A stretch of 64,000 nt of DNA, taken from contig NZ_CYSR01000002.1 in the NCBI RefSeq assembly GCF_001458395.1, forward strand, positions 186,001-250,000, read 5' to 3'. The DNA comes from Leisingera aquaemixtae. Its GTDB lineage: Bacteria > Pseudomonadota > Alphaproteobacteria > Rhodobacterales > Rhodobacteraceae. Shown here piece by piece: positions 35,101 through 52,682 of this stretch (position 1 is its first letter; every line of letters starts with the position of its first letter). Made by a program: the position numbers and the translations under genes. The notes beneath the pieces are model-generated. The model was not told where the DNA came from. It made no database searches and saw nothing but the letters and a program-made list of their open reading frames with translations.

Positions 35101-35451
35101 GAGTGGGTCTCCCTGAAAACTCTCCTGCGTCGCGCGCACAACAGCATGGCTGCGGGCAGAAGGCAATCGCGCCAATGCCGCAGCGGAAATGGGGCCGGGC
35201 TGCGGTTTGCCCTGCAGTTCACGGACCTCTTAAGACTGGGGGGGCAGCGCGGCAAGCAGGCTCCAGCGCCTGAGTTGCAGCCTGCGATTGCGGGCGGGAA
35301 GGCCAGATCCACCGTTCACCGGCATACCTGGGATCCGGCTGCCGGTTCAGCCGGCCTGGCTTTCGGTGCAGATGCTGCAGTCAGAAAGAGTTCCAGCGGC
35401 GGCTGCGGCGTTATACGCGCTGCAAAATCCGAAGCAGAAACAAGTGGGTAT

Positions 35452-35476
35452 CTGAAGTGATGGTGCCCCCACACGG
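35452..35476 (+). repeat. attL core (copy 1)
   Basis: 25-bp core beginning CTGAAGTGATGG and ending CCACACGG, in plus orientation, at the left junction. It copies the 3' end of the tRNA-Thr gene. To the left is ordinary chromosome upstream of metY; to the right is element DNA. Confidence 0.9.
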
Positions 35477-35570
35477 TAGTTCTGCTCCCGTTACAGGCAC
35501 TGCTTCAGCCGGTAGCCCCAGCAAACTAAGGGCTATCCGAGGTTGCGGGTGCAGGTCAACAGGCGCGGCG

Positions 35571-35592
35571 TGGTCTACGCTGTGGTCTACGG
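35571..35592 (+). promoter_or_regulatory. Candidate integrase arm-binding sites
   Basis: TGGTCTACGC (35571-35580) and TGGTCTACGG (35583-35592) are direct repeats 12 bp apart. The same word, TGGTCTACGG, occurs at 39401-39410 over the integrase start codon, and inverted at 38206-38215. Words shared by both ends of an integrating element are typical of arm sites for tyrosine recombinases. Confidence 0.45.
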
Positions 35593-35730
35593 TTCTGTCT
35601 CCCTCTTATCTGTGATCCTTCGACCAGTCTCGCTGGCCCTGCGGTGAGCGCGGTCACCCCACTGGGGGGGAACCGCAGTTGCGTATATATGTGTAGGCCG
35701 CTCAGATTTCTGACCCCAAAACCTTCCCTG

Positions 35731-37644
35731 TCATGCCGCCATGCACTCCACTGGTCCGAAGACGACTTGCAGCGCGTCATTGCCGCGTCCACCTCCGACG
35801 TTGACCTCCATCAGTCCAAGGCGCTCGATGGCTGCCTCGAAGTTACGGTGTTTGCGGATGCAGCGGTTGAAGTTGGAGCGGTCCTTCTCACCGATGTAGT
35901 CCATGATCGCAGAGAACAGGATTGGTTCGCCACATCGCACCCTTCGTTGGCGCTCGACGAACTCGACAGCTTGCTTGACCCGGCCCGATAGCGGCTTGTG
36001 ACGAGGTCGCCAACTGGTCAGCCGACACCCTGGGAACCATTGCGGCAAAGCCTTGGCCAGCCCATACCGCCGCCCCGCGATGATGTAGGCGCTGCACGGC
36101 AGGCATTTGCCCGCATCAAAACCCCGCACCGTTCCTCGCCCTACAGCCTGGATGACCCCGTGCCCCAGCTCTCCCAGCTCAATCTGTTTGACGAGATCGG
36201 CGGGCGGGTGGTCAGTCACGGACCGGCCTGCGCTGGCATAAGCCAAGCCAAGAAGCTGGCTGTCGGGAAGATGCAGCAGCCCAGCCAGTACCACATTCGG
36301 CACATCCTTGAAGGCGTTGGTCGCCTGATGCGCTCCCCAGTGCAGGAAGCTCACGCGGGAGAAGTCAGCTTTCTTCACGTAACGCCGGATCAGCCCAACC
36401 GGGTCAATGCCAGCCTGCGCCTTGTGGTGAACGACCAGCCAGGGTTCATTGGGCTTGGTGTCGATGACGGTGGCAACCTCGCGGGCAAGCTGGTCAGCGT
36501 TGCGCCTCCAGCCATCCTTACCGCCCCCTTGGTCCATCAGGTGGATCTGCAGCGGGGCATAGTCCTTGGGTGTCGAACGCAAGCGAACCAGACCGCCGCT
36601 GCGGGCCTCCCAGGCGCTATACGTGTGGCGGACCCGTCCTGATGCGTCGAGGACAAGGAGCGGTGTGAAGTCTGCAGGCAGTGCGTCTCGGATGTTGAGC
36701 GCGATGACCAGGTTGCTGTGCATACGGGTGATCCGTGCCGTCCGGCCAACCAAAGCCTTGAGCTTGTACAGCAGCCGCCGGAAGCCTTCCCTAGCGGACA
36801 CATCATCTGTGGCGACCGAGGATAACGCCTCCAACGCCGGTATCCGCAGGAGCTGCCCAGGTGACGACGTGGTCAGATCGAACTGAAGATCCTGGACCTG
36901 ATCCGCCAGGGCGGGATTGGTCCTGCGCAGTGGGGACAGCATGGCGGCCAGTTCGTCGGCTGACATAGTGATGACCTCACCCGGCTCAATGGTCTCGTCC
37001 CAGATCCGCACGGTGCGGGGCTGACCAAGATAGTGGAACTCACTGACCTGCGAGAACACGCGGCCAGCGCAACGCCTTGTCAGCATCTGCTGTGTGGTGA
37101 ACAGGATCTGCGCCCCGTCATGCTCTGTGGCCGAGAGTTCGCCGACCTCCTCGTCCGAACACAGGACCGCGAAGTCCGCCTCGTTCAGTCCAGCTTCATC
37201 GACCAGCCGCCGGATCTCGTCCAACCGGGACAGGCAGACCAAGACACCGACATCAAGATGATCAGGGCTTGCCACGACCCGCCGCAGGAAATGGATCAGC
37301 GCTGTGGTCTTGCCCATTCCGGGGTCGAGACTGCTGAGGTGGATGGTGGGGGCGCACGACCCGTCAGCCATATCGCACAAGGTCGCGACGACATCAGCCA
37401 GGGCTTCAAGCTGCGGCTCGGTTGCGGTCATGCCTCTGGCTTCGAGCGTGGCTTCGAGATCGGCGAGGACCTGGTCGGACAACGACGACGTGGTCGAACT
37501 GGTACAACTATCATCAGCTTCTATGGAAGAATGTACCACCTCAGCTGAAGCATCAGCCACAGGTATCAGCGAAAGTTCAAGCTGGCGGGGGGAAAGGCTT
37601 TGCGCCTGGAGTGTCGCCGGTTCGGCTTGTGAAATGAATGTCAT
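35731..37644 (-). CDS. SF2-like DEAD-type ATPase/helicase of the integrated element
   Basis: A 637-aa protein. Walker A is DPGMGKTT (about residues 107-114), a Walker B-like WDET is near 216, and a motif VI-like QAVGRGTVRG is near 500, an arrangement expected of superfamily 2. Cysteines in GKCLPCSAYIIAGRR may form part of a metal site. No nuclease or primase motif was found. The ATG at 37644 has a GAGG site; a GTG at 37698 would add 18 residues. It lies between the arms of the 205-bp inverted repeat. A role in element replication or in defence is possible, but neither is shown. Confidence 0.7.
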   Translation of the reverse strand: MTFISQAEPATLQAQSLSPRQLELSLIPVADASAEVVHSSIEADDSCTSSTTSSLSDQVLADLEATLEARGMTATEPQLEALADVVATLCDMADGSCAPTIHLSSLDPGMGKTTALIHFLRRVVASPDHLDVGVLVCLSRLDEIRRLVDEAGLNEADFAVLCSDEEVGELSATEHDGAQILFTTQQMLTRRCAGRVFSQVSEFHYLGQPRTVRIWDETIEPGEVITMSADELAAMLSPLRRTNPALADQVQDLQFDLTTSSPGQLLRIPALEALSSVATDDVSAREGFRRLLYKLKALVGRTARITRMHSNLVIALNIRDALPADFTPLLVLDASGRVRHTYSAWEARSGGLVRLRSTPKDYAPLQIHLMDQGGGKDGWRRNADQLAREVATVIDTKPNEPWLVVHHKAQAGIDPVGLIRRYVKKADFSRVSFLHWGAHQATNAFKDVPNVVLAGLLHLPDSQLLGLAYASAGRSVTDHPPADLVKQIELGELGHGVIQAVGRGTVRGFDAGKCLPCSAYIIAGRRYGLAKALPQWFPGCRLTSWRPRHKPLSGRVKQAVEFVERQRRVRCGEPILFSAIMDYIGEKDRSNFNRCIRKHRNFEAAIERLGLMEVNVGGGRGNDALQVVFGPVECMAA

Positions 37645-37797
37645 GGGGGGCCTCGTCTCATGTGCAAGCCGAGCGCAGCGCTCCGCGTTTGCGGGCACCG
37701 TGGTGGCGTTTCGGCTATTCTGATGGTGGGCCTTAATTCCCCGGCCTCGCTGGACGCAGTAACCAATCAGGCAGTCGCCAGTGCAGGTGGCCCGAGG

Positions 37798-37956
37798 TCA
37801 GTCCGCAGTCAAGATCTCGACGAGGTTATCAAGCTGGGTCTTGTCCCCGCGCCAGTCTGGAGCGTGATCGTCCAGCAGCTTCCAGAACTCGGGGCCATGG
37901 TCATGGTGCTTCAAATGCGCCAGCTCGTGGATGAGGACGTAGTCAATGCAGGCCCT
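37798..37956 (-). pseudogene. 3' fragment of a YgjP/DUF45-type metallopeptidase gene
   Basis: 53 codons read ACIDYVLIHELAHLKHHD, then HGPEFWKLLDDHAPDW and a short tail ending LTAD-stop. HELAH with a following H..FW and P.W is the signature of YgjP-like zinc peptidases. The N-terminal two thirds are missing: the frame is cut exactly where the right arm of the 205-bp inverted repeat begins. The gene was probably broken by the rearrangement that created the repeat. Confidence 0.8.
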
Positions 37957-38161
37957 TGACCGCGCTCACCGCAGGGCCAGCGAGACTGGTCGAAGGATCA
38001 CAGATAAGAGGGAGACAGAACCGTAGACCACAGCGTAGACCACGCCGCGCCTGTTGACCTGCACCCGCAACCTCGGATAGCCCTTAGTTTGCTGGGGCTA
38101 CCGGCTGAAGCAGTGCCTGTAACGGGAGCAGAACTACCGTGTGGGGGCACCATCACTTCAG
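37957..38161 (-). repeat. 205-bp inverted repeat, right arm
   Basis: Exact reverse complement of 35452-35656. It ends with the inverted attachment core and abuts the truncated metallopeptidase on its left. Confidence 0.9.
38137..38161 (-). repeat. Internal attachment core (copy 2, inverted), attP-like junction
   Basis: The 25-bp core in minus orientation. On the minus strand it is preceded by about 60 bp identical but for two changes to the element's right end and followed by 180 bp identical to its left end, as in the joined attP of a circular form. Confidence 0.85.
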
Positions 38162-38221
38162 CTAACACATTGGTTTTGCTCCAGCTTTTTTGCACGCGCA
38201 AGGAGCCGTAGACCATGTCGG
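38162..38221 (-). repeat. Inverted copy of the integrase leader and first codons
   Basis: Matches the reverse complement of 39395-39453, including the AAGGAG site and ATGTCGG of the integrase, with one extra T and one C for T. It begins one base before the integrase stop codon region, so the integrase gene is flanked by two opposing copies of its own leader. Confidence 0.85.
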
Positions 38222-38222
38222 C

Positions 38223-39401
38223 TCATGTGACAGCTTTCATCCACTTCTGCAGCACCTCGACAGGGTAGCCAGCGCCGTATCCGTGACCCACGCCATCGGT
38301 CTGCCAACCGCCGATTTGATCGACGATGTCGGCAGGGCACTCAACAGCACGGAGCCTGTCCCGCATCGAATGGCGGAAGCTGTGCATGGTACAGCCATCG
38401 GGTGCCATCTGCTTGATCCACTTGTTCAAGGCAGCGCTGGCCGCGTTCGCGTTTGTCTGGTCCTTCTTGTTGTAGCGCGGGAACAGGAACTTGGTGTCGG
38501 CTGCCTGTGCCATCAGGCGTTCGGCTGCCCATCGGGCTTCACCCTCAAGCGGCACAATGCGTTCGCTGCCCTTGGTCTTCAGGCGACGCCATTGATGGGG
38601 GCGCACCTGGGCAACAAGCGACCCATCTGGCCTGCGCTCAATGTCTTCCCTTACAATGCCCGCCGCCTCAGCGAGACGCATCCCCGTGTCGGAGACGAGG
38701 GCAACGAGCCACCGGATGTCGTCGTCCATCTGGCGACACTGGCGTTGAACCTCACTCAGGGCATCGGCAGGGATCGGGTTGCGATCACTAACCCCGGCCT
38801 CTCGGTCGTAGTACACCCCGTTGAACGGGTTGGTCAGGGTCAGTCCAAGCTCGCTTGCGGCAAAGTTGGTGATAGCCCGCACGGTTCCGAAAATACGGGT
38901 GATGCTGCTGCCCGCCAGACCTCGTTTGATCAGCGCATCCCTGAACTTGTTGGCATCGGCCTTGGTGTAGGCGTCGAGATGCTTGTCACCACAAGCGTCG
39001 ATGACATAGCCGCAGGACCTCTCAACTGCCCGGTGAAAGGTATCAGGGCGACCTTGTCCCTTGAGACGCAGATAGATGCCCACCGCTTCGGACAGCTTCA
39101 CAGAGGCCGAAGAAACCTCCGGCGGCGATGAGCTTGCTACGACACGGCCGTCTCCTTGCAGCCTGAGCATGTGTTTGCCGGGCAGGTCCGCGTCTTTAGA
39201 GCGGAGGTGAAACCAGTACTCGTCGAGCTGATCCGCAGCCCTCCTGGCCCGAGCTTCCGCCACGCGAGCGGCCCTTGTTCGCAGAGAATATGCAATCCGA
39301 GGGGAGGAATAATGCTTCTTCAGGTCTTTGGGGATGCGGCGGCTGAAGTAGAAGACGCCATCTTTCACGAAGGTGAACGCAGGCGAAATGGTCTCCGACA
39401 T
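38223..39401 (-). CDS. int: Tyrosine-type site-specific integrase
   Basis: A 392-aa recombinase with the short N-terminal arm-binding type start (FYFSRRIPKDLKKHY), a SAM-like core-binding domain and a complete-looking catalytic domain. Arg242 is in DTGMRLAEAAG, Lys276/278 in LKTKGSE, His340 and Arg343 in MHSFRHSMRDRLR, Trp366 in GGWQTDG, and the tyrosine is Tyr375 or Tyr379 in HGYGAGYP. The ATG has an AAGGAG site. It reads in the same direction as tRNA-Thr and starts 61 bp after its CCA, so it may be expressed from the tRNA promoter. A TTGCACGTGCAA palindrome lies in its leader. Confidence 0.93.
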   Translation of the reverse strand: MSETISPAFTFVKDGVFYFSRRIPKDLKKHYSSPRIAYSLRTRAARVAEARARRAADQLDEYWFHLRSKDADLPGKHMLRLQGDGRVVASSSPPEVSSASVKLSEAVGIYLRLKGQGRPDTFHRAVERSCGYVIDACGDKHLDAYTKADANKFRDALIKRGLAGSSITRIFGTVRAITNFAASELGLTLTNPFNGVYYDREAGVSDRNPIPADALSEVQRQCRQMDDDIRWLVALVSDTGMRLAEAAGIVREDIERRPDGSLVAQVRPHQWRRLKTKGSERIVPLEGEARWAAERLMAQAADTKFLFPRYNKKDQTNANAASAALNKWIKQMAPDGCTMHSFRHSMRDRLRAVECPADIVDQIGGWQTDGVGHGYGAGYPVEVLQKWMKAVT

Positions 39402-39426
39402 GGTCTACGGCTCCTTGCACGTGCAA
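39401..39426 (-). promoter_or_regulatory. Integrase leader: palindrome and arm-site word
   Basis: TTGCACGTGCAA (39415-39426) is a perfect 12-bp palindrome just upstream of the ribosome site. TGGTCTACGG (39401-39410) overlaps the start codon and repeats the words in the left end. Binding of integrase or another protein here could repress integrase synthesis. Confidence 0.4.
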
Positions 39427-39453
39427 AAAGCTGGAGCAAAACCAATGTGTTAG

Positions 39454-39478
39454 CTGAAGTGATGGTGCCCCCACACGG
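39454..39478 (+). repeat. attR core (copy 3) overlapping tRNA-Thr
   Basis: The 25-bp core in plus orientation. Bases 39463-39478 are the 3' end of tRNA-Thr and 39454-39462 lie beyond its CCA. The tRNA remains complete on this side. Confidence 0.9.
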
Positions 39479-39538
39479 ACTCGAACCGCGGACCTACTGA
39501 TTACAAATCAGTTGCTCTACCAGCTGAGCTATAGGGGC
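39463..39538 (-). tRNA. tRNA-Thr (UGU)
   Basis: A 76-nt cloverleaf on the minus strand. Acceptor GCCCCTA pairs with TGGGGGC, the anticodon stem ACTGA/TCAGT has loop TTTGTAA with anticodon UGU, and the T arm has GTTCGAGTC. CCA is encoded and the discriminator is A. It is the integration target of the element to its left and may drive the integrase. Confidence 0.96.
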
Positions 39539-39748: not shown

Positions 39749-40267
39749 TTACTGCAAGGGCTGGCCGTTGCGCCCGAAGGTCAGGGTTTCGCGGCTCAGG
39801 TCGTCGTATGTCACCTCAACAGCAACCTGCTGGATCGAGCCCGGTGGATAGCTGCGGTACGGCATCCCGTCCTCTGCCTTGATCATGTTCGGCAAGCCTT
39901 CGTCCAGGTGGCACTCCGGCAGCGGCCAGAGTTCCGGCGCGGCGCCGTTTACCCCCAGCCTGACCTGCGCCAGGCCGCAGCGCCAGGACCACAGGTGGGT
40001 GACATACAGCAGGTCCTGGCCGCCGAACTGGCGCACGTGGATCCAGCTGGCCCGGGTTGCGGCCAGTATCGGCTTCACCTCGGCTGCGGTGGTGAACCGG
40101 CCGGTGGCCTCCTGCGGCTCCGCCGCCAGCGCGGGGGCGGCCGGCGCAGGCGCAGACAGCGCCGCAGCCTCCGGCGCAGGCGCAGACAGCGCCGCAGCCT
40201 CCGGCGCTGCGCCGTCCGGGCCCGGCTGTGCCGATGCCGCGATGATCGTCAGGATCACATCAATCAT
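39749..40267 (-). CDS. Secreted hypothetical protein with 10-residue tandem repeat
   Basis: A 172-aa protein with a short signal peptide (MIDVILTIIAASAQPG), an Ala/Pro-rich linker carrying the exact repeat PEAAALSAPA twice (a 30-bp tandem repeat at 40141-40200), and a C-terminal domain with conserved-looking cysteines (LWSWRCGLAQVRLGVNG, PECHLDEGLPN). I do not recognise the family. The ATG at 40267 has a GGAG site; a longer frame exists but lacks a site. The 210 bp between this gene and tRNA-Thr contain only the tRNA promoter region. Confidence 0.65.
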   Translation of the reverse strand: MIDVILTIIAASAQPGPDGAAPEAAALSAPAPEAAALSAPAPAAPALAAEPQEATGRFTTAAEVKPILAATRASWIHVRQFGGQDLLYVTHLWSWRCGLAQVRLGVNGAAPELWPLPECHLDEGLPNMIKAEDGMPYRSYPPGSIQQVAVEVTYDDLSRETLTFGRNGQPLQ

Positions 40268-52064: not shown

Positions 52065-52682
52065 ATGGAGTTCCGCTGGCTCAAACAGAACAGCGCGGCC
52101 GAGGCCATTATGGTCTTCGGCGGCTGGGCTGTGGGGCCGGAGGTGTTCTGGCATCTGGATGGCCCGCAGGACATCCTGTTTGCCAGCGGATATGGCGACC
52201 TGGGCGCGGATCTGCCGGATCTGTCCGGTTATGAGCAGGTCAGCCTGCTGGCGTGGTCGTTTGGGGTTGCGGCCTATGCGCACTGGCAGCAGGGGCGGCC
52301 AGACCCGTTCCGCCGCAAGGTGGCGGTGAACGGCAGTCTGAAGCCGGTGAACCGCAGCGCGGGCATCCCGCCTGCGGTCTTCCGCAAGACAGCCGAGACG
52401 CTGAGCCTGGAAAGCTTTCAAAGTTTCCTGACCCGCGTCTTCGGGCAGCCGCAACCCCCCGAACCGCTGGATGTGGAGGCGCGCCGGTCCGAGCTTATGG
52501 CCGTCGAGCGGCGTGGTGACGCGCCGCAGACGCGGTTTGACCGGATCTGGATCAGTTCCGGTGACAAGATCTTTCCGCCGGCCAACCTGCAGCGGGCCTG
52601 GGCAGGGCAGGCGGTCCGCCTGATCGACGCGCCGCATGCGCCGTTCGGCCAGTTCGCGACGTGGGAGGCGCTGCTGCAATGA
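52065..52682 (+). CDS. bioG: Pimeloyl-ACP methyl ester esterase, BioG type
   Basis: A 205-aa DUF452/BioG alpha/beta hydrolase. The nucleophile is in LLAWSFGVAAYA (Ser of WSFG), near residue 65; a His near the C-terminus in APHAPFGQF completes the site. In the BioC pathway such an enzyme releases pimeloyl-ACP from its methyl ester, replacing BioH. Its location right before bioC supports this. Its stop overlaps the bioC start (ATGA). Confidence 0.9.
   Translation: MEFRWLKQNSAAEAIMVFGGWAVGPEVFWHLDGPQDILFASGYGDLGADLPDLSGYEQVSLLAWSFGVAAYAHWQQGRPDPFRRKVAVNGSLKPVNRSAGIPPAVFRKTAETLSLESFQSFLTRVFGQPQPPEPLDVEARRSELMAVERRGDAPQTRFDRIWISSGDKIFPPANLQRAWAGQAVRLIDAPHAPFGQFATWEALLQ

Follow-up and report, generated by a model that had tools for sequence, protein, structure and literature searches.

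In the yeast 2-micron circle with its Flp/FRT system, two identical inverted repeats, each with a recombinase site, border two unique segments; the recombinase gene lies next to a repeat, and the segments undergo inversion. Flp also acts in the replication-coupled amplification of 2-micron (PMC3737535). tRNA-integrating islands of the Islander type are described with two end sites (PMC4383910). Three att sites, i.e., attL, attR and an internal attLR, are served by one integrase in GIsul2/CR2-sul2; the available part of that report ties the internal site to mobilization of a sub-unit and mentions no inverted complete attP (PMC9376610). For tandem arrays of SGI1, attP sites are reported inside the integrated array, the available text presenting the array as whole tandem copies that can be excised singly (PMC2297512). 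In vitro, the tRNA-targeting tyrosine integrase of Thermococcus pTN3 inverts DNA flanked by att sites in opposite orientation; it is proposed to act between chromosomal sites, and the excerpted account describes no built-in inverted attP (PMC5495485).

Here, we identify a small mobile element, inserted in a tRNA gene, with an additional attachment site, complete and inverted, at the boundary between its integrase and its cargo (Table 1). The element lies in a 64-kb stretch of DNA, hereafter the window. Like Islander-type islands, it has a tyrosine integrase at the 3' end of a tRNA gene, direct end repeats and an empty site in relatives; unlike them, the element and its family have a third site, a complete inverted attP, between integrase and cargo. 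In contrast to the tandem copies of SGI1, this is a single element with an inverted site. Like 2-micron, the family would have identical inverted repeats with recombinase sites on the circle expected from attL x attR recombination (95-100% identity in 13 elements); unlike 2-micron, it integrates into tRNA genes, has a lambda-like attP with arm words and belongs to alphaproteobacteria. The conserved plan of the element is one in which the recombination sites are arranged in 2-micron fashion and not in lambda fashion. It raises the questions of how a single integrase manages three sites and leaves the element intact, why its own segment is seen one way round and how arms of 80-120 bp stay identical.

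Several observations define the element. First, the 25-mer CTGAAGTGATGGTGCCCCCACACGG occurs in the window in three exact copies and nowhere else, one of them inverted, as the first-pass annotation had claimed; the middle copy turned out to be part of a complete attP, with a P and a P' arm, arm-type repeats for the integrase (three in all) and the 3' end of the tRNA. Second, tRNA-Thr(TGT) overlaps the core with its 3' end, and direct repeats of this 3' end lie at both ends of the element (the cores at 35452 and 39454). Third, in a genome of the same genus (G684, locus L197) the left flank, an intact tRNA-Thr and the right flank follow each other without the element, the chromosomal flank on the attR side running into the tRNA. 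A second genome of the genus (G678, L198) has an empty site too, in which ~110 bp of dissimilar sequence separate the left flank from the tRNA. The earlier proposal that the whole element is excisable through the first and third cores is consistent with these findings, since both the ends of the element and the empty site agree with excision by attL x attR. A further locus of the genus, L196, is degraded, with no tRNA and a fragment of the integrase only, and for this reason carries little weight.

Table 1. Features of the element, with coordinates in the window
Feature	Position	Strand	Remarks
Inverted repeat around cargo	35424-35656 / 37957-38189		233 bp, 96%; 100% inward of the core
attR core	35452..35476	+	exact 25-mer; direct copy of tRNA-Thr 3' end + 9 bp
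P' arm at attR	35477..35656	-	inverted repeat; identical to P' arm of middle site; arm-type repeats (CCGTAGACCA matches) at 35571-35580 and 35583-35592
ATPase-like cargo protein, 655 aa	35731..37698	-	80% identical to Ruegeria TM1040 cargo protein
YgjP/SprT-type metalloprotease gene, C-terminal piece	37797..37956	-	PF01863 2e-17; truncated at middle P' arm
Middle site, complete inverted attP	37957..38221	.	P' arm 37957-38136, core 38137-38161, P arm 38162-38221; arm-type repeats (CCGTAGACCA matches) at 38021-38030, 38033-38042 and 38206-38215
Candidate promoter in P' arm, TTGACC-N16-GATAGC	38054..38081	+	block conserved among relatives; points through core
Middle core, inverted	38137..38161	-	exact 25-mer
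Inverted repeat around integrase	38137-38221 / 39395-39478		85 bp; copies differ by one substitution and a 1-bp indel
Tyrosine integrase, 392 aa	38223..39401	-	DUF6538 (PF20172, 1e-17) and Phage_integrase (PF00589, 2.5e-13); ORF intact
P arm at attL, integrase leader	39395..39453	-	one arm-type repeat at 39401-39410, overlaps start codon
attL core	39454..39478	+	exact 25-mer
tRNA-Thr(TGT), target gene, restored by element	39463..39538	-	ARAGORN; intact in empty-site relatives

The integrase belongs to an alignment of 27 integrases in which the catalytic residues (R242, K275, H340, R343, W366 and Y375) are invariant. The 655-aa cargo protein has no Pfam family above the cut-off and contains GMGKTT, which we take to be a Walker-A-like motif. 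Compared to the element of Ruegeria, that of the window is without restriction genes, and its metalloprotease gene breaks off at 37957; the remaining piece has 86.5% identity to residues 191-242 of the Ruegeria gene. By this comparison, the window element is a reduced member of the family that has kept the arrangement while its cargo shrank by deletion. Neither conjugation genes nor a phage structural family were found among its genes, and a Pfam scan of 20 cargo proteins from relatives gave no conjugation family above the cut-off. One TraG-type match below the cut-off was seen within a restriction subunit among the relatives' cargo. The integrase was not found in 50,697 phage records (E 1e-15) and is present on 3 IMG/VR contigs.

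Both inverted repeats of the window share the middle core as their centre. As the genome is a 40-contig draft, such a structure might have been assembled from mixed circular and integrated forms. However, the middle arm differs from attL by two changes, and the layout is repeated elsewhere: the finished replicon of Ruegeria sp. TM1040 has it with inverted repeats of 1148 bp (100%) and 85 bp (100%), and so do the single-contig genomes G045, G505 and G671. The search for the three-core layout in related genomes, which the first-pass annotation had proposed, was in this way positive, and we regard an artefact as the source of the middle core as very unlikely, indeed as the least credible of the readings considered here.

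The same order, tRNA - attL - integrase - attP(inverted) - cargo - attR, is conserved across the family. An inverted arm lies behind the integrase gene at 51 of the 61 loci with a full-length relative of the integrase, the window included, although these loci are non-independent, several of them coming from the same genomes in some cases. By contrast, all 40 other island-type integrase loci that were compared, from the same bacterial family, lacked it. This control set was hand-picked from lower-scoring hits with an island-like ORF length; just 12 of its loci are within 600 bp of a tRNA (located 5' in 6 and 3' in 6), and the downstream sequence is shorter than 1.5 kb in 6. The best inverted match in this set scored 29.2 bits compared to 141 bits in the window, and a chance repeat is ruled out by it. 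The arm is not universal in the integrase family, being absent in seven full-length cases with enough downstream sequence (L096, L102, L109, L114, L217, L220 and L222). Addition of seven partial integrases (L041, L048, L049, L050, L052, L053 and L113) to the 61 gives the 68 loci used for orientation; L059 was dropped before counting, as it shares a contig with L042. Outside the tally are the partial or broken integrases L054, L072, L073, L200 and L202-L206, the short loci L009-L028, L074-L093 and L207-L214, and weaker search hits. No arm was found at the partial or broken loci L072, L073, L200, L202, L204 and L206, nor around the integrase of L203.

Loci with the arm include integrases with as little as 44% identity to that of the window, at many tRNA genes, and the plan extends over several families of alphaproteobacteria, with seven kinds of tRNA gene as targets. 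This breadth bears on the idea that the middle site is a fossil, left when the junction attP of two tandem copies was inverted and mostly deleted, or by a local duplication accident. The smaller cargo of the window compared to Ruegeria and the gene cut at the junction are in line with such an event. Nevertheless, the presence of the arm at most loci across diverse integrases and tRNA genes refutes the fossil as a general account, the identity of the arms within many elements (see below) also speaks against it, and we give it very little credence. A simple tandem copy is ruled out by the inversion and the conservation of the middle site. In the literature searched, the family is unnamed and its plan of a tRNA element with two attPs undescribed. 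At 25 of the 41 arm-bearing loci outside closed genomes, a contig ends <1 kb from the middle core, as expected from the long repeat there; this offers a reason for the frequent breaks of draft assemblies just behind these integrases, by which such elements are hidden.

A second inverted repeat of 197-3183 bp surrounds the cargo in 13 elements, 10 of them on finished-type contigs. The two copies are 95-100% identical, the 3183-bp repeat at 100%, and the long repeat reaches into neighbouring genes by varying lengths. The two repeats of an element meet at the core, overlapping by 15-28 nt in 12 of the 13 elements and by 53 nt in the window. The arms flanking the integrase are identical within the element at 29 of 49 loci (out of 62, those whose arm is 60 bp or longer), while between elements whose integrases are 96% and 91% identical the arms are 85% and 65% alike, respectively. 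Because the arms are identical within elements and different between them, the att sites evolve in concert. Moreover, in 16 of 37 elements a 9-base word from the P arm is found two or more times in the element's own P' arm (with up to one mismatch), compared to 3 of 740 shuffled P' arms; the word varies by group (GTAGACCA, GTAGTACA, GTAGCAC, GTAGAAC and TACTGACCA types) and is of a different kind in L098 and L103. The remaining 21 of the 37 elements have no P-arm word twice in the P' arm; in L062, L063 and L219 the cause is that the arm continues into the gene, and in others, e.g., L061, L069, L106 and L107, the reading as arm sites was not borne out.

The first-pass annotation had further proposed that the integrase could flip the ATPase segment through the first and second cores and its own gene through the second and third. 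The single-contig genome G045 contains three elements that share ~5 kb of cargo at 88-90% identity, and this cargo lies one way in L063 and L065 and the opposite way in L064, while the integrase part of L064 and L065 (2171 bp, 90.5%) runs in the same direction. Cargo inversion has evidently occurred in relatives, and its agent may have been either the integrase or homologous recombination between the repeats; the first of the two proposals holds as far as the cargo lies both ways in related elements. The cases are confined to related elements within a single genome or strain (G045; L043/L051), and cargo inversion between assemblies of one species was looked for and not found. For the ATPase cargo, a position at either end may alternatively reflect loss of one copy of a repeat, and Ruegeria retains an inverted ATPase remnant near its middle site; for the 5-kb cargo of G045, differential loss of repeat copies in place of inversion is unlikely. 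L094 was not counted as an inverted relative, its restriction proteins being just 25-35% identical to those of Ruegeria.

The second proposal is not supported by the survey. The tRNA lies 5' of the integrase at 55 of the 68 loci and on its 3' side at none, with no adjacent tRNA recognized at 13, and the integrase segment was never seen flipped where a tRNA is present. L106, which is without a tRNA, has the P' arm directly upstream of the integrase and may represent either a flipped case or a tandem element. Thus, the orientation survey, the empty sites and the cargo of G045 fit excision and cargo inversion but not free flipping of the integrase. Here the family also departs from 2-micron, as the cargo lies both ways but the integrase segment, wherever a tRNA is present, only one way.

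Because the elements of G045, the clear case of inversion, have 0.7-kb repeats, cargo inversion could be RecA-dependent. More generally, the long inverted repeats could be the functional part of the plan, with homologous recombination and gene conversion keeping the arms identical and turning the cargo, and with the middle core as a passenger that the integrase does not use. The length and identity of the long repeats, their uneven extension into neighbouring genes, as gene conversion would give, and the failure to see inversion at the short repeats of 80-120 bp around the integrase, which we expect to be usable well only by the integrase, all agree with this possibility. However, it leaves unexplained why a whole attP lies in the middle, with words of its P and P' arms matching far more often than in shuffled arms, and how the short arms stay identical in most elements; 80-120 bp is short for homologous recombination. 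On balance, we consider it a serious alternative but an unlikely one.

We favor, as the probable explanation, a two-attP plan similar to that of FLP/2-micron in a tRNA-integrating element, in which the stable integrase orientation is cut off from the P' arm and probably silent. The integrase would remove the whole element by attL x attR recombination, as the direct cores and the empty sites suggest. The excised circle would have two identical, opposed attPs, one on either side of the integrase gene, like the inverted FRT pair of 2-micron. Recombination of the inverted attP with attR, or of attP with attP on the circle, would turn the cargo round. The inverted placing of the middle site is safe, because no neighbouring pair of sites deletes the integrase alone or the cargo alone. 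A P' arm directly upstream of the integrase may mark an active, short-lived state, and stable insertions would be those in which the integrase is separated from that arm.

The match with 2-micron, i.e., two identical inverted sites, a recombinase gene bordering one of them and two unique segments, could also extend to function: attP x attP inversion during copying of the circle would convert theta into double rolling-circle replication and raise the copy number. L103 carries a primase-helicase-like protein (AEP-TOTE + DUF5906). However, among the cargo proteins scanned no replication gene is common to the elements, and freely isomerizing circles should give both integrase orientations, which were not seen; amplification of this kind is in our view doubtful.

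Within the favored two-attP plan, the third site might have a regulatory role. In ICEclc, which has two att sites, the far-end promoter Pcirc drives intB13 after circularization. The integrase transcript of ICEclc is listed with Pcirc at 102,729 (PMC2892462); the counterpart in the window element is a candidate predicted from its sequence. In its present orientation, this candidate promoter would run antisense into the integrase gene. Of 34 P' arms, 12 match at least 9 of the 12 consensus bases; the same level is reached by 20% of shuffled sequences and by 3 of the 34 arms when reversed. As scoring gave a weak match, the idea of a strong sigma-70 promoter there was dropped, which leaves the block at candidate status. 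GTGCCTGT recurs beside the core, and for this reason the block may instead be a protein site.

Tentatively, and as one possibility that we hold to be somewhat improbable, the element could be self-locking, with two facing attPs on the circle, an integrase driven from the P' arm through the core, and a third site acting as a built-in latch that couples completed insertion to shut-down. Insertion could occur through either attP. An integrase that ends up beside the tRNA would be severed from the P' promoter and exposed to antisense transcription from the inverted attP, while the other orientation would keep it on until it is turned again, by attL x inverted attP recombination, to the off state. 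A rare burst of integrase could then flip the gene on, commit the element to excision and scramble the direction of the cargo. The self-regulating arrangement suggested in the first-pass annotation stands in part: the integrase does lie one way round, beside the tRNA and away from the P' arm, but a reorienting half was not observed and the promoter in the P' arm is a candidate.

A hairpin over the ribosome site of the integrase was rejected, because an alignment-wide fold gave no common structure. In single folds, a motif resembling a ribosome site lies in a stem in 30 of 34 leaders, compared to 481 of 680 with the upstream part shuffled, and since shuffled leaders still give the stem this often, we attach no meaning to it. 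Some elements of the family carry restriction-modification or other candidate defence genes.

The element in the window carries three copies of a 25-bp attachment core, the middle one inverted, as a first-pass annotation had noted, and that description proved right and understated. One flank of the middle core, 180 bp long, repeats without change the inner side of the left end (35477-35656); the other, ~60 bp, corresponds as far as the start codon to the integrase leader of the right end and differs from it by a single substitution and a single indel. Because it bears arms matching both ends, the middle core sits in a complete inverted attP. The presumed catalytic residues of the integrase do not vary across 27 aligned integrases.

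Sites and genes of the element in the window
Feature	Position	Strand	Remark
25-bp core, attR	35452	+	exact 25-bp match
25-bp core, middle	38137	-	exact 25-bp match
25-bp core, attL	39454	+	exact 25-bp match
tRNA-Thr(TGT)	39463-39538	-	last 16 bases within core
Complete attP, inverted orientation	37957-38221		flanks of middle core match both element ends
Integrase	38223-39401	-	DUF6538 and Phage_integrase domains
ATPase-like cargo gene, 655 aa			in cargo segment
Remnant of YgjP-type metalloprotease gene			last 52 codons, cut at middle site

The site is empty in a genome of the same genus (G684), where the left flank runs directly into an intact tRNA-Thr and this into the right flank; in a second (G678), the site is also empty, and ~110 bp of unlike sequence separate the left flank from the tRNA. 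Counting the window's own, 6 of the 21 genomes in the genus have an integrase match at E 1e-60. A related element is intact in G683 (locus L201), with its integrase adjoining tRNA-Phe and a perfect 75-bp arm, integrases are broken or partial in G692, G682, G675 and G238, and G689 and G693 have only smaller pieces. Separately, chromosomal DNA just past the tRNA (35424-35451 and 39426-39453 in the window; also at locus L198) resembles the P arm, i.e., the integrase-leader side of the core, in empty sites too, perhaps as traces of earlier insertions. To the right of the tRNA, a 24-bp stretch occurs twice, 30 bp apart, within a 195-aa ORF (40153-40206).

We tallied 68 loci with related integrases, one duplicate removed; these loci are not independent, six coming from genome G045 alone and two to four from several others. 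The integrase is full-length (at least 330 of 388 profile positions) at 61 loci, and at 51 of these, the window included, an inverted copy of the upstream arm lies behind the gene (scored present at ≥60 bits). Among 40 hand-picked control loci of other island-type integrases, of which 12 adjoin a tRNA and 6 have <1.5 kb of downstream sequence, the best inverted-arm match reached 29.2 bits. Of the ten armless full-length loci, L095, L104 and L108 end within 800 bp of the gene, and L096, L102, L109, L114, L217, L220 and L222 have no inverted arm though their sequence extends >800 bp past it; L102 retains an inverted 18-nt core and a 383-bp repeat. A second inverted repeat is present in 13 elements, 10 of them on contigs that are finished or of chromosome size (Ruegeria TM1040, G045, G200, G671, G505), with lengths of 233 bp in the window (180 of it inside the core), 1148 bp in L055, 3183 in L056, 765 in L043, 319 in L051, 686 in L063, 767 in L064, 729 in L065, 379 in L067, 394 in L098, 197 in L100, 304 in L101 and 291 in L103. 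At the middle site, 12 of the 13 elements have an overlap of 15-28 nt between the two repeats; in the window, where the flanking sequences happen to be similar, this overlap is 53 nt. A third core in direct orientation (≤1 mismatch) was found in 11 of the 13 and not in L101 or L103. The three-core layout thus recurs in relatives, and we conclude from these comparisons that the third inverted site is a conserved design. At 25 of the 41 arm-bearing loci outside closed genomes, the contig breaks off no more than 1 kb from the middle core, which is what a long repeat beginning at that point would be expected to produce. Among 51 loci that have a tRNA 5′ of the integrase, this gene is Thr (19), Leu (12), Phe (10), Arg (5), Ser (2), Gly (2) and SeC (1).

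On the finished megaplasmid of Ruegeria sp. TM1040 (L055), an integrase 87% identical to that of the window adjoins tRNA-Phe. Two perfect inverted repeats are present: one of 85 bp surrounds this integrase, and one of 1148 bp, each arm of which holds a BRO-family gene, surrounds a cargo of a type I restriction-modification operon, an SprT-type protease and an ATPase. The window element is alike but has neither restriction genes nor the initial part of the protease gene. With the window's genome counted throughout, the integrase was found in 32/295 genomes of the bacterial family at E 1e-30, in 18/394 in a separate search of the family at E 1e-120, in 10/385 of the class at E 1e-60 and in 5/398 of the phylum at E 1e-60, all five within the same class. 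It also occurs in one plasmid record and three IMG/VR contigs; among phage records there was no match at the thresholds applied.

The first-pass annotation had proposed a switch that could excise the whole element, flip the cargo or flip the integrase. That proposal is right in part: besides the conserved third site, inversion of the cargo is real over evolutionary time. The single-contig genome G045 has elements at tRNA-Thr (L063), tRNA-Ser(TGA) (L064) and tRNA-Ser(GGA) (L065) that have ~5 kb of cargo in common (88-90%); this cargo runs in one direction in L063 and L065 and in the opposite direction in L064, while the integrase parts of L064 and L065 run the same way (2171 bp, 90.5%). In a second, weaker set, a gene whose start falls inside or beside the repeat adjoins the middle site in L043 and L201, whereas in L044 and L051 it occupies the far end; L043 and L051 both come from the strain Limimaricola litoreus ASW11-118, on separate contigs. 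The ATPase gene sits at the far end of the element in the window and in Ruegeria, close to the middle site in L057, L035 and L039, and at both ends in L056; in the degraded L196 its direction relative to the flank is reversed. These placements are accounted for equally well by inversion and by the loss of one repeat copy. An inverted remnant of the front of the ATPase gene beside the middle repeat (L055:22109-22255) suggests that the long repeat once carried a second ATPase gene, as in L056.

Free flipping of the integrase half was not borne out: the tRNA is 5′ of the integrase at 55/68 loci and on its 3′ side at 0/68, and this half does not appear to turn freely. At the other 13 loci, no tRNA was recognised next to the integrase. 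In three (L056, L101, L113), a tRNA 3′ half and then the core lie directly upstream; by eye, these halves are Arg-like in two and Phe-like in one, and these elements thus sit on a tRNA fragment, perhaps one that another island left behind. In L106 (~1420-1600, integrase orientation), a P′ arm (the other side of the core) like that of a different element type, L103, lies directly upstream of the integrase arm; this could be a flipped integrase, and we read it as two elements inserted in tandem. The 12 control integrases adjoining a tRNA divide evenly, 6 facing away from it and 6 facing it; in the family studied here, only the orientation facing away was observed. As the two attP sites of an excised circle would be identical or almost so, both orientations would be expected were the sites used at random; something selects one. 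A match to the Rfam Methylobacterium-1 RNA lies near the integrase of L113 (2576-2678).

In the window, the motif CCGTAGACCA (≤1 mismatch) occurs twice per P′ arm and once per P arm, and one more one-mismatch match lies far off at 52111. A 9-base word from the P arm has two or more copies in the same element's P′ arm in 16/37 elements versus 3/740 shuffled P′ arms. The word is GTAGACCA in the window, L035, L039, L041, L055, L057, L094 and L218, GTAGTACA in L046 and L056, GTAGCAC in L051, GTAGAAC in L060, TACTGACCA in L064 and L065, and of another kind in L098 and L103. The test failed in 21/37 elements. In L062, L063 and L219 the arm extends into the gene, so the wrong stretch was examined; in L062 and L063, both arms do contain CCGTAGACCA. 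In the others, the test fails outright. We read the recurring words as putative arm-type sites of the integrase. The integrase start codon in the window overlaps the P-arm copy, and this overlap would account for the repeat extending into the gene. Within elements, the arms round the integrase are identical in 29/49 and ≥97% alike in 39/49; between elements, they diverge, with integrases 96% and P arms 85% identical for L070 versus L071, and 91% and 65% for L069 versus L070. The repeats also take in the 3′ end of whichever tRNA serves as target. This identity within and divergence between elements indicates that the sites exchange sequence or are converted. Coding sequence is included in the integrase-flanking repeat of L062 (181 bp) and L063 (244 bp), 100% in both, as if the repeat were growing by gene conversion.

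Beside the observed layout, empty site, concerted arms, two cargo directions and single integrase direction, we propose that excision would proceed via attL x attR, that the cargo may be inverted by the integrase or by homologous recombination, and that the integrase may be silent in its standing orientation. A block, TTGAC-N16-GATAGC (or GATACC, TAAACT), is present in many P′ arms and points through the core to the integrase start; TTGAC occurs at some position in 28/34 P′ arms read forward and in 5/34 read in reverse, but the best forward sigma-70 scores are just slightly above those of shuffles. In the standing orientation, this candidate promoter at the inverted attP would face the integrase from behind.

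In a search of mostly open-access literature, most subscription papers and all bioRxiv preprints lying outside it, we recognised no description of such an element, and DUF6538 was named in none of the papers searched. This literature covers GIsul2, an island with a third site (PMC9376610), SGI1 in tandem arrangement (PMC2297512), Flp recombinase (PMC3737535), the pTN3 integrase (PMC5495485) and ICEclc (PMC2892462, PMC9286271); PMC8375218 is unrelated. The best comparison for the site layout is the 2-micron plasmid; by membership, the element in the window is not a 2-micron plasmid but a tRNA-integrating element.
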